Shown here one piece after another: positions 47,163 through 53,296 of a stretch of DNA of 64,000 nucleotides. How positions within the stretch are numbered: the first letter of the stretch is position 1; each line of letters starts with the position of its first letter. The notes beneath the pieces are model-generated. The model searched no databases. It was not told the DNA's origin and saw nothing but the letters and a program-made list of their open reading frames with translations. Location of the stretch: contig JAFWLT010000001.1 of NCBI GenBank assembly GCA_017510925.1, positions 1-64,000 of the forward strand, written 5' to 3'. Made by a program: the position numbers and the translations under genes. Source of the stretch: Candidatus Saccharimonadota bacterium (GTDB lineage Bacteria > Patescibacteriota > Saccharimonadia > Saccharimonadales > Saccharimonadaceae).

Positions 47163-47861
47163 TTATTTTGGTAATAATAAGAACGCTACTGTACCTGCTG
47201 CTGCGCCTAGGATAATAGTAAGAATAATAGCAATAATAAGCCCTGCTTTAGAATCCTTCTCTGGTTTAGCAATAATCTTCTCTGGAGCCTTTGGCTTCTC
47301 TGGGGCTTTTGGCACAATAATCGGTTTTTTACGAGCAGTGGCAGCAGACAAAGGCCGTTTTTCTATCTTATTAGTATTGATGAATTTAGCTCTTTGTCCA
47401 AGTGGTGCTGGTCTCTTAGGAGTTACTGGTTTTGCAGGGATGGCTGGTTTTGCTGTAGTAGCCGCCTTAGCAATCGCAGCTGCTGCGATCTCTTCTGGGG
47501 CCATCTCAGGTTTTACGGCTGGTTTAACCACCTTTGCGCTAGATACTTTAGAAACGGCCTTAGATGCACCCAGAGGGCGTTTTTTTACATTTGTCTTTAC
47601 AAAATTAGGCCGTGCAGCTGGTTTCGGAGCCTTTTTTGGCTCTTCTTTCTCTGCAAAAATCTCTTCAATTTCAATTTCTTCATCAAGTAGTGGATTTGCC
47701 GGTGGGATTCTTCTGGTGATCTTCTTTACTGGCTTTTTCTCTGGCTTTGGTGCCGGTTTTTCTACTACTTTTTCCGTTACTTTTATAGATTTAGCCTTAG
47801 CAATACCCCCTTTTGGAATATCCTTCTTAGCCGGTACAAAATCTATGTAACGTTTGTTCAT
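47163..47861 (-). CDS. Tail-anchored Lys/Pro/Ala-rich protein with internal repeat
   Basis: A 232-aa protein that is mostly disordered and basic-acidic patterned, with a duplicated motif (RPNFVKTNVKKRPLGA and RAKFINTNKIEKRPLSA, about 75 residues apart) and a single C-terminal membrane helix (about 205-229). It is tail-anchored with its bulk in the cytoplasm, by the positive-inside rule. Its ATG overlaps the tpiA stop (TAATG). Confidence 0.6.
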   Translation of the reverse strand: MNKRYIDFVPAKKDIPKGGIAKAKSIKVTEKVVEKPAPKPEKKPVKKITRRIPPANPLLDEEIEIEEIFAEKEEPKKAPKPAARPNFVKTNVKKRPLGASKAVSKVSSAKVVKPAVKPEMAPEEIAAAAIAKAATTAKPAIPAKPVTPKRPAPLGQRAKFINTNKIEKRPLSAATARKKPIIVPKAPEKPKAPEKIIAKPEKDSKAGLIIAIILTIILGAAAGTVAFLLLPK

Positions 47862-48628
47862 TATTTCACTCTCTTAGCTATGTCAATTATATCAGTAAAT
47901 TGTTCCAATATCAAGCTTGCCCCACCGATTAAAAGCCCATTAATTCCAGGGGTAGTGAGGTATGCACCAGCATTTGTAGGCTTTACGCTGCCACCAAAGA
48001 GAACCGGCACCTCCTCAGAAGTTTTTGCCCCATAAACTTCTTTCAAATTCTTCCTAATCATCTCTGTTACTTCAGCAATTTCATCAGGGGTAGCAATTTT
48101 TGCATCCTTAGTAGAAGAAATCGCCCAAACTGGCTCATAGGCCACAATCACCTTACTCACATCCTCGGCGCCTATCTCTGATAAACCACCAAGTAGCTGA
48201 TCACGAATCACATCGGCTGTCTCACCAAATGCGCGTTCGCTCTCCGTTTCACCAATGCAAAGAATAGGGGTGATTTTGTGCCTGATTGCTGCAGCAACCT
48301 TCTTGGCAACCATCTTGTCATCCTCGTGAAAAATGTATCTTCTCTCTGAATGCCCTACGATACAGTATTTAACCAAACCATTAAGCTCTGCAAAGGAAAT
48401 TTCCCCTGTAAATGCCCCAAAATCCTGATAAAACGCATTTTGCGCACCTAATTTGATTTTAGAACGATCTAACTGTAAAGATAGTGACTGAAGACATAAC
48501 GCAGTTGGCGCTACTACCACCTCTATATCTCTGTAATTCGCAATTTTTTTCTGTAATTTATGTAGATAAACCGAGGCTTCGCCTACGTTAAAGTTTAGTT
48601 TCCAGTTGCCCACAATATAAGTTTTCAT
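47861..48628 (-). CDS. tpiA: Triosephosphate isomerase
   Basis: A 255-aa TIM barrel: GNWKLN (Lys), IVGHSERRYIF (His), VIVAYEPVWAIS (Glu), VLFGGSVKPTNAGAYL and GLLIGGASL phosphate loops. It interconverts DHAP and GAP. TGATATAAT ends 6 nt before the ATG. Confidence 0.97.
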   Translation of the reverse strand: MKTYIVGNWKLNFNVGEASVYLHKLQKKIANYRDIEVVVAPTALCLQSLSLQLDRSKIKLGAQNAFYQDFGAFTGEISFAELNGLVKYCIVGHSERRYIFHEDDKMVAKKVAAAIRHKITPILCIGETESERAFGETADVIRDQLLGGLSEIGAEDVSKVIVAYEPVWAISSTKDAKIATPDEIAEVTEMIRKNLKEVYGAKTSEEVPVLFGGSVKPTNAGAYLTTPGINGLLIGGASLILEQFTDIIDIAKRVK

Positions 48629-48664: not shown

Positions 48665-49429
48665 ATGAAAAAAGTACTTGCATTCGACATAGATCAAACT
48701 TTAAACGTGGCAAAGACCCCAATCACCGACGATGTCGCTGATTTATTGGTTAAATGCCTCGATCACTTCGAAATTTGCCCCATTTCGGGCCAAAAATTCG
48801 ACCAATTCCTAATTCAAATCGTAAACAGGCTCCCTCAGCCTACTCCAGAACAACTATCTCACCTACACCTATTTGTAGCCCAAGGAACGCAATATTACAG
48901 ATTCAACACAGAAAAAAACGACTGGGAACTCGTATATAACTACCCACTTACAGATGAGCAAGTCGCAAAAATTAGTGAAACTATCGAAAAATCAGCTAAA
49001 GAGCTCGGCTACTGGGAAGAAGACAAATTGCAACCAGGTGATGAAATTATCGAAAATCGCCTCAGTCAGGTGACTTTCTCGGCTCTCGGTCAAAAAGCCG
49101 GCACCGAAGAAAAATACGCTTGGGACCCAGATTGCAAAAAACGCGAAGCGATCGTAAAAAGATGCAAAGAGCTCGCTCCAGAATTTGACTACGAAATCGG
49201 TGGCACTACCTCCATTAACGCCATCACCCCTGGCATGAACAAAGAATTCGGTATGACTCACCTTCTAGAGGAACTAAACGTCAGAAAAGAAGATATTCTC
49301 TATTTTGGCGATATGACCCAACCAGGTGGTAACGATTACCCAGTCGTCAAAATGGGTATCGATACCATTACTGTTAGAAGTCACGAAGACACAGCCTATG
49401 CCTTACGCGGCATTCTCGGCATTATTTAA
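48665..49429 (+). CDS. HAD-IIB hydrolase of the eukaryote-type phosphomannomutase family
   Basis: A 254-aa protein. FDIDQTLNVAKTPI (nucleophile D8, acid D10), SGQ, RLSQVTFSALGQKAG, GGTTSINAITPGMNKEFGMTHLLEEL and YFGDMTQPGGNDYPVVKMG align with the motifs of alpha-PMM (VSPIGR, GGQISFDVFP-like, GDKTMPGGND). It probably interconverts or dephosphorylates sugar phosphates (mannose 6-P/1-P). Its last 27 bp overlap the convergent aldolase fusion gene. Confidence 0.82.
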   Translation: MKKVLAFDIDQTLNVAKTPITDDVADLLVKCLDHFEICPISGQKFDQFLIQIVNRLPQPTPEQLSHLHLFVAQGTQYYRFNTEKNDWELVYNYPLTDEQVAKISETIEKSAKELGYWEEDKLQPGDEIIENRLSQVTFSALGQKAGTEEKYAWDPDCKKREAIVKRCKELAPEFDYEIGGTTSINAITPGMNKEFGMTHLLEELNVRKEDILYFGDMTQPGGNDYPVVKMGIDTITVRSHEDTAYALRGILGII

Positions 49430-51268
49430 AGCTTTTACGTTTTCTGTTAATCTATCAAATAGTGCGCCCTGGGCAGCTTCCTTGTTGGCGTTATCACCAG
49501 CCCAAGCTTCTAATGCTGGCCCCTGTAAAGCTCTAGAAAATGAGAAGGAAATTGGCCATGCAAATGGTTGTTGGCGCATAATAGCAGCAAGATTTGCTGT
49601 AGCCTGTTCTGGCGTTTGTCCACCAGAGAGGAATACGATACCAGCAAGTTCCAAAGGCACATTTGCTCTAAGTACTCTCATTGTAGCTCTAGCTACTTCC
49701 TCAGGATTAGATTCATTCACAAATTGTTTTCCAGCCATCACCATATTGCATTTAAGGATACAGGCCTTCAAGTTTACCCCGTGTCTATCTAGAGCTTTAA
49801 ATAATTCATCTAATACCTTGGCAGTAATTCTACTACAAGTATCAATATCATAATTTCCATCATATACTACCTCTGGTTCTACAATTGGCACTAATCCAGC
49901 AGATTGTGAAGCTGCAGCGTATTCTGCCAAAATCCGACAATTTTCTACGATTGCTGCTGTAGTAGGAGTAACTAATTCCCCATCACGTCCTAATCTAATT
50001 TCAAAAGCAGCACGCCATTTAGAAAATCTTAGGCCCATCTGATAATATTCACGTAGTCTAGCTGGAAGATCTTCAAGACCTTTAGTATAAGTTTCTTCAC
50101 CATTAGCTTCTGGAATATCTTTGATTCTAGCCAAACCTTGATCTACTTTGATTCCTGGTACCAAACCTCTAGAAATCAAATATGCTGGAATTGTTTGCCC
50201 ATCGAAAGTGGTATCTCTAGCTGTTTCATCAAACAAAATCACACCCGTGAGAAATTCTTCTATCCCTGGAGTAGAAAGTAAAATTTCTCTATAATCGTGT
50301 CTGTTTTCAGCAGTATCAGCAATCCCTAACGCCTCAAATTTCTTCTTAATTGAGCCACCAGATTCGTCGGCAGCCAAGATACCTTTATGAGGAGCCATTA
50401 ATGTAGCAGCAATCATTTCCATATTACTTTCAGAGGTAGAAGTTGCAATACTTTCGAGTTCTTCTAGGCTCAAAGTAGAATCAAGTGTAGCATTTTCTAC
50501 GTTAATTCTAGCCATCTTTAAGGCATACTCTACGGTTTTGCCAATAATAAAACCACCAAGCACCGTAGCAGACATAATAGAATATGCAGAAAGATGAGTT
50601 AATCTATCAATTCTAGAAACAGCGATATTCTCTCTGTAATCCATATAACCAAGATATCTCTCTGATACTTTAATTATCTTCTCTTGTGGATAGCCTTCTA
50701 GGACCTGTTTTGCTGTATAAAGTGGTGCATCTTCTTCAAGGAAAATCAAACTTGCGTGTCTTACTAACCCTGCAGCCTCCTCGGCAGCAGAAGTTTTGAT
50801 ATAAAGCACCAATTTAGTTTTCTTGTAATAATCAAGATAAGCTGCAATTTTATCTACTACAGCCGGAGTAAGGTGTGCAGATCTATCTACATAGAGATAA
50901 TCTACAGATTCGGTAGGCGTAGTAAACGAAGATTTTTGTTGAGCTGAAGGCACCATATAAGCCGTGCCATTATCAGAAGTAAGAATGTATCTATAAGTAC
51001 TGGTTGGCCCACTAATTACCGGACCACCTTCATCAAAATGAAAAGTCGTATCAGAAATATCACTAGATAACCCCATTTTTTGAAGAACTTCAAGAGTAAT
51101 TGCTGCCCCACCAAAGCTACTGGTACGGTTAAAATAGTGATGCTCAGAAGCATCAAAACTAAAATCAAGCCACTCTTTACCAGAGTTATCGCGCTCAAAA
51201 TTTTCGGTTCTACTATCTAGATTTAGGTAAACGTCCTTAAGAACATTGCCCACTACCAATATATGCAT
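49403..51268 (-). CDS. Fusion of PfkB-like kinase domain (degenerate) and class I fructose-bisphosphate aldolase
   Basis: A 621-aa protein from MHILVVGN; upstream in-frame WYNKL is promoter. Residues 1-265 have the PfkB fold (VVGNVLKDVYLNL, SSFGGAAITLEVLQKMGL) but the catalytic GAGD motif is replaced (HLSAYSIMSATVLGGF, about 225-240), so kinase activity is doubtful. Residues about 285-621 are class I aldolase with intact residues: GILAADESGGSIKKKF, RFSKWRAAF, PIVEPEV, and the Schiff-base lysine in ILKCNMV (K506). It cleaves fructose 1,6-bisphosphate. Confidence 0.88.
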   Translation of the reverse strand: MHILVVGNVLKDVYLNLDSRTENFERDNSGKEWLDFSFDASEHHYFNRTSSFGGAAITLEVLQKMGLSSDISDTTFHFDEGGPVISGPTSTYRYILTSDNGTAYMVPSAQQKSSFTTPTESVDYLYVDRSAHLTPAVVDKIAAYLDYYKKTKLVLYIKTSAAEEAAGLVRHASLIFLEEDAPLYTAKQVLEGYPQEKIIKVSERYLGYMDYRENIAVSRIDRLTHLSAYSIMSATVLGGFIIGKTVEYALKMARINVENATLDSTLSLEELESIATSTSESNMEMIAATLMAPHKGILAADESGGSIKKKFEALGIADTAENRHDYREILLSTPGIEEFLTGVILFDETARDTTFDGQTIPAYLISRGLVPGIKVDQGLARIKDIPEANGEETYTKGLEDLPARLREYYQMGLRFSKWRAAFEIRLGRDGELVTPTTAAIVENCRILAEYAAASQSAGLVPIVEPEVVYDGNYDIDTCSRITAKVLDELFKALDRHGVNLKACILKCNMVMAGKQFVNESNPEEVARATMRVLRANVPLELAGIVFLSGGQTPEQATANLAAIMRQQPFAWPISFSFSRALQGPALEAWAGDNANKEAAQGALFDRLTENVKALNNAENAA

Positions 51269-51274
51269 AAGCTT

Positions 51275-51283
51275 ATTATACCA
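51275..51283 (-). promoter_or_regulatory. Leaderless extended -10 promoter
   Basis: TGGTATAAT ends 6 nt before the fusion gene ATG. Confidence 0.7.
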
Positions 51284-51304
51284 TAACAAATACAAAATCA
51301 ATAA

Positions 51305-51336
51305 AAAAATAGTGTTGTAGAATTTACAACACTATC
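51305..51336 (-). terminator. AT-rich palindromic terminator (repeat copy 3, variant)
   Basis: TAGTGTTGTA/TACAACACTA stem with an upstream A-run (T-run on the minus strand). The arm includes the stop codon of the FISUMP gene. Confidence 0.7.
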
Positions 51337-53260
51337 TAGCAACGCAACGAATATTATACCCAAGGTAACGAACATCACGGCTAGGGAAATGAAAATTAGA
51401 GGTTGAACCAAGATAATAAATTAGGTAGCGATATTGGGTAGTGTTATTGCTGTACGTTGCTGGCGTAGCAGACCACCATCCAGCATCTGCCGTAGAGATA
51501 ATATTCCCACTAGAATAATACCCATTGACAGGGAGTGGGTTGAATTCAGAAAGATGCCCATCGACTAAACCTTCGATTTGCGCATAACTAGGCAACGTCC
51601 AGCCTTTTGGACAAATATTATAAACATCTGTGTTAGTATTTGAAGAACCAGTAATAGTGTTAGCTGTAGCTGCAGCATAATTATACCAAGCACCTATCGT
51701 TGGGTTACATTGCATAGCTGCAGTAGTAAAGCCAGAGCTAGAGCCACTGTTAGCAGCTGTAGAAAGTAAAGCAGTAGGGGTAGAAAAGCTAGCAGAAGAA
51801 GCAATATTTGAAGTAGAAGCATTTAGTGCAGTAGCAGCAGGGGCAGTACCAGCAGCATTACAACCAATTGCAAGGTTTTTTATCATCCAAAGATCATTAC
51901 CAATTTTCTTAACTGTATATTCTCTGTTATCACGAGTATCAATAAGAGTTTTTGTAGCTCCACCAGTAGTATTTGTCACAATATCGCGATCCATCTCTTG
52001 CATATTAGTAATATCGTCAAGAGTCCTAGGAGTCTTAGCCACGCAACGAATGCTAAGCCCTGCTGAACGGCCACCACTAGTAACATTAGCATAATAAGGA
52101 GTTAGCGTACTTGTATCTGACGCAGAGAGATACCAACGATATGTAGCATTATATGGAGTAGAAGAAGACCAAACCCCAACACCTGCAGAGAAAGTACCAT
52201 TTCCATAATAATAGCCTTCTAGAGCCATATTATATTCAGTGGTATATGCCACAACGCTCTCTTGTTCTGTATGAGTAGGTAGTCTCCACCCAGCCGGGCA
52301 AATATCATAAGCTGCATCCACGGAATTAGATGTCCCTGTAATAGTCATAGCAGAGGCAAGAGCATAGTTGTATAGTGCCCCTTTTGTACCACTCCCATCA
52401 TAATGCATCTTTGCTGCAGTTAGAGAACTGCCACCAGTACTCAAATCAGTATAGCTGATGCTTAATGGGTTGGTCGTAGTGTAAGAACTTTCTACGTTTG
52501 AAGTTTCAGAATTTAGAGTCATAGTTCCAGCCGGATCATCAGCTTTACCAATAAAGCGCAAATTTTGCGTCATCCAACAAGTTCCATTAATCCAGCGCAC
52601 AGTATATTCTTGACTATCACGTAGATCCATCACGGTATAATCAGCAGTTGACGCTTCTCTTTGACATATTTCTGGAGTGATATTCTGGATATGAGGAATT
52701 GTTGGATTCGTAGTAGCAGCAAGATTAAGTCCTATCGTGTAAGTACCAGCTGCTTGAGAATAATTAATTTTTGAAGCAAAAGAAAGCGTGGTAGTATCTT
52801 CATTGGTTGCTACATTATTTTCTAGGAGTTTAACACCAGAAACATATGGAATAAAGTTACCAGAATCTTTTTTATAGCCCCAAGTGTTGTCTGTGAGTGA
52901 AGAGGCAGTAGCACCTGCTTCTGCAGAGAGAGTAGGGATTGTTGCATTCTTGCCATCTGCTGTATTGTCTCTAACTAGATCTGTAGCATCATTTGAAGAA
53001 GACATAGTAAGTTGATAACCGGTCATATTATTAGTAGATACTTTGATATTTAGATCTTTGCTATCACTTGTTTTAGTATTTGGATTAAGATTTAGTACTA
53101 CATTATTAGAAGAAAGGGTAATATTAAGGCTTGGTGCTACGTTTACGATGTAATCTACATCAGCAGCACTAGCGTTTGATAAACTTCCTAAAAGCAAGAA
53201 GGAGCACGCAAAAACAATACATACACAAAGAAACAGATTACGCACCAACCTCGTTAGCAT
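51332..53260 (-). CDS. Secreted FISUMP-domain surface protein, copy 2
   Basis: A 642-aa protein from MLTRLVRNL. It has a signal peptide, the same N-terminal beta domain as copy 1 (nearly identical from VDYIVNVAPSLNITLSSN through NTWGYKKDSGNFIPYVS), then two FISUMP domains with different sequences (CWMTQNLRFIG...CPAGWRLPT...WSSSTPY and LWMIKNLAIGC...CPKGWTLPS...WWSATPA...NIRCVAR). Conserved stalk with variable heads suggests divergent binding specificities. Confidence 0.85.
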   Translation of the reverse strand: MLTRLVRNLFLCVCIVFACSFLLLGSLSNASAADVDYIVNVAPSLNITLSSNNVVLNLNPNTKTSDSKDLNIKVSTNNMTGYQLTMSSSNDATDLVRDNTADGKNATIPTLSAEAGATASSLTDNTWGYKKDSGNFIPYVSGVKLLENNVATNEDTTTLSFASKINYSQAAGTYTIGLNLAATTNPTIPHIQNITPEICQREASTADYTVMDLRDSQEYTVRWINGTCWMTQNLRFIGKADDPAGTMTLNSETSNVESSYTTTNPLSISYTDLSTGGSSLTAAKMHYDGSGTKGALYNYALASAMTITGTSNSVDAAYDICPAGWRLPTHTEQESVVAYTTEYNMALEGYYYGNGTFSAGVGVWSSSTPYNATYRWYLSASDTSTLTPYYANVTSGGRSAGLSIRCVAKTPRTLDDITNMQEMDRDIVTNTTGGATKTLIDTRDNREYTVKKIGNDLWMIKNLAIGCNAAGTAPAATALNASTSNIASSASFSTPTALLSTAANSGSSSGFTTAAMQCNPTIGAWYNYAAATANTITGSSNTNTDVYNICPKGWTLPSYAQIEGLVDGHLSEFNPLPVNGYYSSGNIISTADAGWWSATPATYSNNTTQYRYLIYYLGSTSNFHFPSRDVRYLGYNIRCVAR

Positions 53261-53266
53261 AACCTT

Positions 53267-53275
53267 ATTATACCA
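53267..53275 (-). promoter_or_regulatory. Leaderless extended -10 promoter
   Basis: TGGTATAAT ends 6 nt before the ATG at 53260. The region is near-identical to that of copy 1. Confidence 0.7.
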
Positions 53276-53296
53276 TAAACCATAAGTAGAAAACAC

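Follow-up and report, generated by a model that had tools for sequence, protein, structure and literature searches.

In one family of Saccharibacteria, a domain derived from a PfkB-type sugar kinase precedes a class I fructose-bisphosphate (FBP) aldolase in a single protein and has lost its ATP-side motifs, among them GAGD, the anion hole and catalytic base. The reading we favour, with a probability of roughly 0.6, is that this domain is a pseudokinase derived from the paralogue PfkB2, joined to the class I FBP aldolase (FBA) in one family and kept for a non-catalytic job. The dead domain stays conserved, in a few relatives even where the aldolase is gone or inactivated, and for this reason a new, non-catalytic job is probable.

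Saccharibacteria are tiny parasitic bacteria and are often said to lack phosphofructokinase (PFK). The gene described here lies in a window of 64,000 nucleotides, the whole stretch of DNA that was analysed, from a Candidatus Saccharimonadota bacterium.

The fusion gene and its neighbourhood

The minus strand encodes the fusion in a single uninterrupted reading frame of 621 codons, with its ATG at 51268 and a stop codon ending at 49403. The following features were assigned in and around it:

49403 to 51268, minus strand: complete fusion gene, PfkB-derived pseudokinase and class I FBP aldolase, 621 aa (translation)
50440 to 51268, minus strand: N-terminal pseudokinase domain, residues 1 to about 276 (hhalign to PfkB2, ribokinase fold)
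49427 to 50422, minus strand: class I fructose-bisphosphate aldolase domain, residues 283-614 (PF00274, NF033379, fold)
51275 to 51280, minus strand: TATAAT -10 box, 6 nt before the fusion ATG (sequence)
51302 to 51333, minus strand: terminator-like hairpin and T-run behind the upstream gene (sequence, read by eye)
47861 to 48628, minus strand: triosephosphate isomerase (TPI), the next glycolytic gene on the strand of the fusion (PF00121, E 2.6e-78)
48665 to 49429, plus strand: HAD-IIB hydrolase, convergent, overlapping the fusion by 27 nt (TIGR01484, E 1.6e-21)

An earlier note, made from the sequence alone, had proposed a survey of related genomes for the fusion and for another pfk. The fusion protein (P0001) had a match in 55 of the 60 genomes of the genus, spanning both domains in 47 of them, so the fusion is no assembly artefact; the other candidate pfk found was PfkB1, and PfkA was absent. 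A separate aldolase translated from an internal start was considered and rejected: the Met at 282/284 varies among relatives.

The TATAAT box and its spacing are repeated in most of the relatives compared from g1, the genus of the window, and from g8. Given this box 6 nt before the ATG, the fusion transcript is probably leaderless. The GAGD-bearing fusions L062 and L063 of g6 have instead a strong AGGAGG Shine-Dalgarno sequence, unlike the arrangement in the genus and g8. The terminator-like hairpin after the upstream gene suggests that the fusion is likely to form its own transcription unit.

In the genus, most fusion loci have the HAD-IIB hydrolase gene as a neighbour. Its product also matches the eukaryotic-type phosphomannomutase family PF03332 (9.5e-11) and is 81-94% identical within the genus. 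The neighbouring gene at 51332-53296 (minus strand) encodes two Fib_succ_major stretches (PF09603) and a signal-peptide-like start; like the fusion, it carries an in-frame LWYNKVM pattern ahead of a possible internal ATG.

The C-terminal half is an intact class I aldolase

Residues 283-614 matched NF033379 with E 1.2e-114 (382 bits, cut-off 250) and PF00274 with E 1.3e-101 (340 bits, cut-off 22), and a structure search with the full-length model recovered the aldolase fold, with Z 50 against rabbit aldolase. The key residues D301, K374, K417, R419, E464, E466, K506, S548 and R579 are all present, as the earlier note had read for this half, Schiff-base lysine included.

49751 to 49753, minus strand: K506, the Schiff-base lysine, in the motif ILKCNM, invariant in 44 aligned sequences

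K506 corresponds to K229 of rabbit aldolase. Catalytic residues and fold are the same as in class I FBP aldolases (PF00274, NF033379), from which the fusion differs by the added PfkB-derived N-terminal domain; compared with the animal enzymes, it is without the C-terminal Tyr tail. We infer that this half is the active FBP aldolase of the genome, in place of the class II enzyme that these lineages lack.

The N-terminal domain descends from PfkB2 and has lost the ATP-side motifs

Residues 1-275 gave no match in Pfam or NCBIfam, and PF00294 was without a match even at E<1. PF00294 detected 5 of the 44 aligned members, which equals the number of GAGD-bearing fusions in the alignment. Pfam is blind to the domain because ATP-side motifs besides GAGD have been lost.

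Ancestry was queried with a profile of 52 degenerate N-terminal domains, that is, with the domain's own relatives. This profile aligned with that of the intact paralogue PfkB2 over 258 columns (hhalign probability 99.4%, E 4.7e-21), compared with a probability of 21% for PfkB1 and of 1.8% for aldolase, the negative control. The AlphaFold2 model of the full-length protein had a pLDDT of 88.0; since the structure search with it returned aldolases only, the N-terminal domain was also folded alone (pLDDT 87.4, pTM 0.86). The resulting model showed a ribokinase-like alpha/beta fold (VIA-align Z 19.9, Foldseek probability 1.00), which the model alignment A2 may favour, as it contained five active-type PfkBs. 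The PfkB type first assigned to this domain by eye agrees with both lines of evidence. Sister fusions from related genera, in which GAGD is still present, point to the same origin.

50579 to 50590, minus strand: S227-A-Y-S230, former site of GAGD, the anion hole / catalytic base (profile alignment)

The SAYS reading of the GAGD site, also made in the earlier note, was reproduced exactly in the profile alignment. GAGD occurs in all 21 PfkB2 kinases and is absent from all 52 degenerate domains and from five more added later. NxxE (Mg/phosphate) and DGxxG (nucleotide loop) are gone from the window's domain and eroded across the 52, while the PfkB2 kinases keep NxxE, DGxxG and GAGD in 20-21 of 21. 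The profile alignment also places a deletion of the MGDD..G segment in the window's domain. In GGxxxN the Asn is lost (I57 in the window; Ile, Val or Leu among the 52) and the second Gly of GG, G54, is kept in 52 of 52. The HLSAYS segment is conserved within the genus and variable between genera.

Compared with the PfkB/ribokinase kinases (PF00294; E. coli Pfk-2, ribokinase), the domain shares fold, homology, D12 and the second Gly of GG; it differs by the absence of GAGD, NxxE, DGxxG and the Asn of GGxxxN and by falling below Pfam detection. Judged from its sequence, the N-terminal domain is PfkB-derived and has lost its ATP-side motifs.

The degenerate domain is conserved, with or without a working aldolase

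Within the degenerate clade G7, K11, D12, D27, F38, R48, G54, R93 and Y94 are near-invariant. Several of them are new with respect to PfkB2:

51233 to 51238, minus strand: K11-D12; new Lys K11 in 51 of 52 (Thr in all PfkB2), former sugar-binding Asp D12 in 52 of 52
51125 to 51127, minus strand: R48, in 49 of 52; the equivalent PfkB2 stretch has Val/Asp/Ile
50987 to 50992, minus strand: R93-Y94, in 52 of 52 of the degenerate clade; the Arg is new (Tyr, Trp or His in PfkB2)

Conservation peaks on the sugar/lid side (3.3 and 2.7-2.9 bits) and drops to 1.6-1.9 bits in the loops that once served ATP. The helix that stands in place of the GAGD region is conserved too (2.8 bits), so the ATP side has not simply been abandoned.

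For most measurable pairs within the window's genus and g8, dN/dS (Nei-Gojobori) was 0.07-0.14 in the N-terminal domain and 0.06-0.11 in the aldolase, rough values, as dS was high in most pairs; in one distant genus the ratios were 0.21 and 0.17. These ratios indicate that the dead domain is under purifying selection and is not decaying.

Four relatives, all of the window's genus, separate the domain from a working aldolase. In G005 and G042 the N-terminal domain is encoded alone and ends at the linker, the aldolase being missing. In G039 (L152) and G052 (L153) it precedes an aldolase without the Schiff-base Lys, LSGG and most other catalytic residues. The signature residues are intact in all four genomes, with K11R in G005 as the sole change; the domain thus outlives the aldolase. 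No class II FBA was found in these four draft assemblies, which are 79-97% complete. A search for a PF00294 kinase found none in G005 (g1) or in G448 (g8), 97-98% complete, both of which keep the pseudokinase domain. The reading frames of the L152 and L153 pseudo-aldolases are open, with zero stop codons.

As far as these gene sequences indicate, the domain is retained independently of a working aldolase. Since it persists both unfused and next to an inactivated aldolase, its role must exceed the regulation of the aldolase attached to it.

On the reading we favour, a PfkB2-type sugar kinase would have been fused with a class I FBP aldolase in a single Saccharibacteria family, its domain would have lost the ability to bind ATP and to transfer phosphoryl groups, and selection would have kept the pseudokinase for a non-catalytic binding or scaffold job of its own. 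With less weight, the pseudokinase may use its former sugar-binding/lid side (K11, D12, D27, R48, R93, Y94) to bind either a protein partner or a small anion, most obviously a sugar phosphate, and may serve for regulation or docking, also when it stands alone. A narrower proposal is tentative: the domain could be a free-functioning sugar-phosphate receptor, with K11, D12, R48, R93 and Y94 as a rebuilt pocket, controlling the aldolase and, in some relatives that have lost this enzyme, signalling to other targets. The earlier note had suggested a regulatory sugar-phosphate sensor on the aldolase. The invariant residues are compatible with such a sensor, but the domain is kept without a working aldolase in the four relatives above, so regulating that enzyme cannot be its only job.

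Regulatory sugar-kinase pseudoenzymes are known mainly from eukaryotes (Gal3p; FLN1/2 as proposed); the domain described here belongs to a bacterial lineage. Gal3p is a sugar-kinase pseudoenzyme with a regulatory role, and plant FLN1/2 are PfkB-type proteins that form part of the RNA polymerase complex of plastids as subunits (PMC3409070). The known role of FLN1 and FLN2, which are PfkB-type like the domain described here, lies in a protein complex; they differ in being stand-alone, eukaryotic, involved in transcription and free of any glycolytic fusion, and represent a separate evolutionary event. FLN1 (8w9z) gave a weak phmmer match with the domain of a GAGD-bearing relative (E 8.8e-4).

A purely structural role, in which the pseudokinase shapes or stabilises the aldolase oligomer and binds no ligand, is rather unlikely. 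Class I aldolases are tetramers and PfkB proteins are dimers, and lid residues of the ribokinase fold, which also form dimer interfaces, are its typical dimer contacts; the invariants of the N-terminal domain may therefore be structural. The presence of both domains in one polypeptide and the purifying selection would also fit a scaffold. However, the same residues are kept in genomes with no aldolase or an inactivated one, so stabilising it is not the whole role, and other members of the phylum, as well as L104 in the family, have the aldolase without this domain.

Metabolic context and the source of fructose bisphosphate

A single PF00294 match was found in the window's genome: PfkB1, at C1:20531-21319, with GAGD intact. 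It lies on one strand with gap, rpiB and rpe, and behind them; gap and rpiB are pointers from a coarse PROSITE-pattern scan (genes are split at stretch ends and degenerate motifs missed), the positions of rpe and pfkB1 were read from L004, and key enzymes were rechecked by profile searches. PfkA (PF00365) was absent from this genome and from all 164 good genomes of the family, in agreement with the earlier statement that a standard PFK is lacking. The same note had named a canonical pfk elsewhere, with kinase activity, as counting against its proposals; the canonical PfkB with GAGD at C1:20531-21319 answers to this in part, its kinase activity being predicted.

Profile searches found no class II FBA, transaldolase or transketolase in the window's genome. 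Among 100 genomes, class II FBA was absent from all 23 with the degenerate fusion and kept in all five with a GAGD-bearing fusion. Since the genomes are related, this pattern should be counted more nearly as a single event than as 28 independent ones; it is in keeping with a replacement of the class II enzyme by the fused one. PfkB1 was kept in 22 of the 23 genomes with the degenerate fusion.

The FBP would probably be made by the separate canonical PfkB1. The PFK proposed for TM7x is a glucose-induced PfkB whose gene adjoins that of FBA (PMC12815258). This protein, TM7x_02415 of Nanosynbacter lyticus, resembles the family's PfkB1 in lying beside FBA; it is a stand-alone kinase, the counterpart of PfkB1 and not of the fused domain, and was matched by gene order only. 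The assignment of PfkB1 as PFK is weakened by G017, G047 and G051 of the genus, in which PfkB1 is present and no FBA of any kind was detected. With transketolase, transaldolase, class II FBA and PfkA missing from the window's genus, PfkB1 and the fused aldolase are the only visible upper-glycolysis route in the genomes searched.

The domain might alternatively position the aldolase by docking onto some component of the cell, such as PfkB1 or TPI. TPI is encoded nearby, PfkB1 is nearly always kept in genomes with the degenerate fusion, and FLN1/2 provide a precedent (PMC3409070). This is nevertheless improbable: co-conservation singles out no partner, and G005 keeps the domain without PfkB1 and FBA.

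Far less likely still is an altered active kinase, in which another residue replaces the GAGD aspartate and the domain makes FBP for the aldolase, the other possibility raised in the earlier note. The conservation of HLSAYS in the genus and the absence of PfkA would be in its favour. Yet NxxE, DGxxG and the GDD..G segment are lost as well and a canonical PfkB is present elsewhere in the genome, which together make a kinase feeding the aldolase unlikely; moreover, HLSAYS differs between genera and the domain persists where no working aldolase is left.

Distribution and origin of the fusion

In the wider phylum the class I aldolase mostly occurs alone. At L042 a PfkB gene follows an unfused aldolase gene on the same strand, and at L054 a PfkB2-like gene lies nearby on the opposite strand. 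Many other genera of the family encode both PfkB1, in most cases next to class II FBA, and a second PfkB kinase, PfkB2. GAGD-bearing PfkB-aldolase fusions were found in g6 (four genomes) and in g270 (G369); that of G369 is part-eroded, with GAGD kept, NKEE changed to NTSI and DGxxG lost. The lineage thus shows separate or adjacent genes, a GAGD-bearing fusion, a part-eroded one, a dead but conserved domain, and a domain that outlives its aldolase.

In the aldolase tree the family's fused forms make up one clade (SH-aLRT 99), within which the degenerate clade (95) has the GAGD-bearing fusions as its sister group (96); one secondarily unfused aldolase, L104, falls among the degenerate forms. This tree supports a single origin of the fusion. 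In the kinase-domain tree the degenerate domains group together at the end of a very long stem branch (3.4 changes per column), and the domain of g6 falls within the stand-alone PfkB2, a placement that carries a long-branch warning; an independent fusion or a domain replacement may have taken place in g6. More than one fusion event may thus have occurred.

That the domain is a decaying, functionless relic is hardly credible: the long stem, its faster evolution than the aldolase across genera and the part-eroded fusion of G369 would suit such a relic, but the low dN/dS (0.07-0.14), the residues invariant across 52 sequences and the frames kept open even without an aldolase contradict it.

The g6 fusions L062, L063, L064 and L065, of about 664-672 aa, combine a PfkB with GAGD, NxxE and DGxxG and a class I FBA. 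The GAGD-bearing fusion (G249 and kin) and these g6 proteins are candidate bifunctional phosphofructokinase-aldolases, a type of fusion of which no description was found in the literature searched.

At L067, L069, L074, L080 and L086 a conserved in-frame stretch of about 170 aa (MAKFLQDLL...), with no Pfam match, precedes the stand-alone PfkB2 of other genera; this stretch may be part of a further PfkB2 fusion, or else a gene that adjoins PfkB2 in frame.
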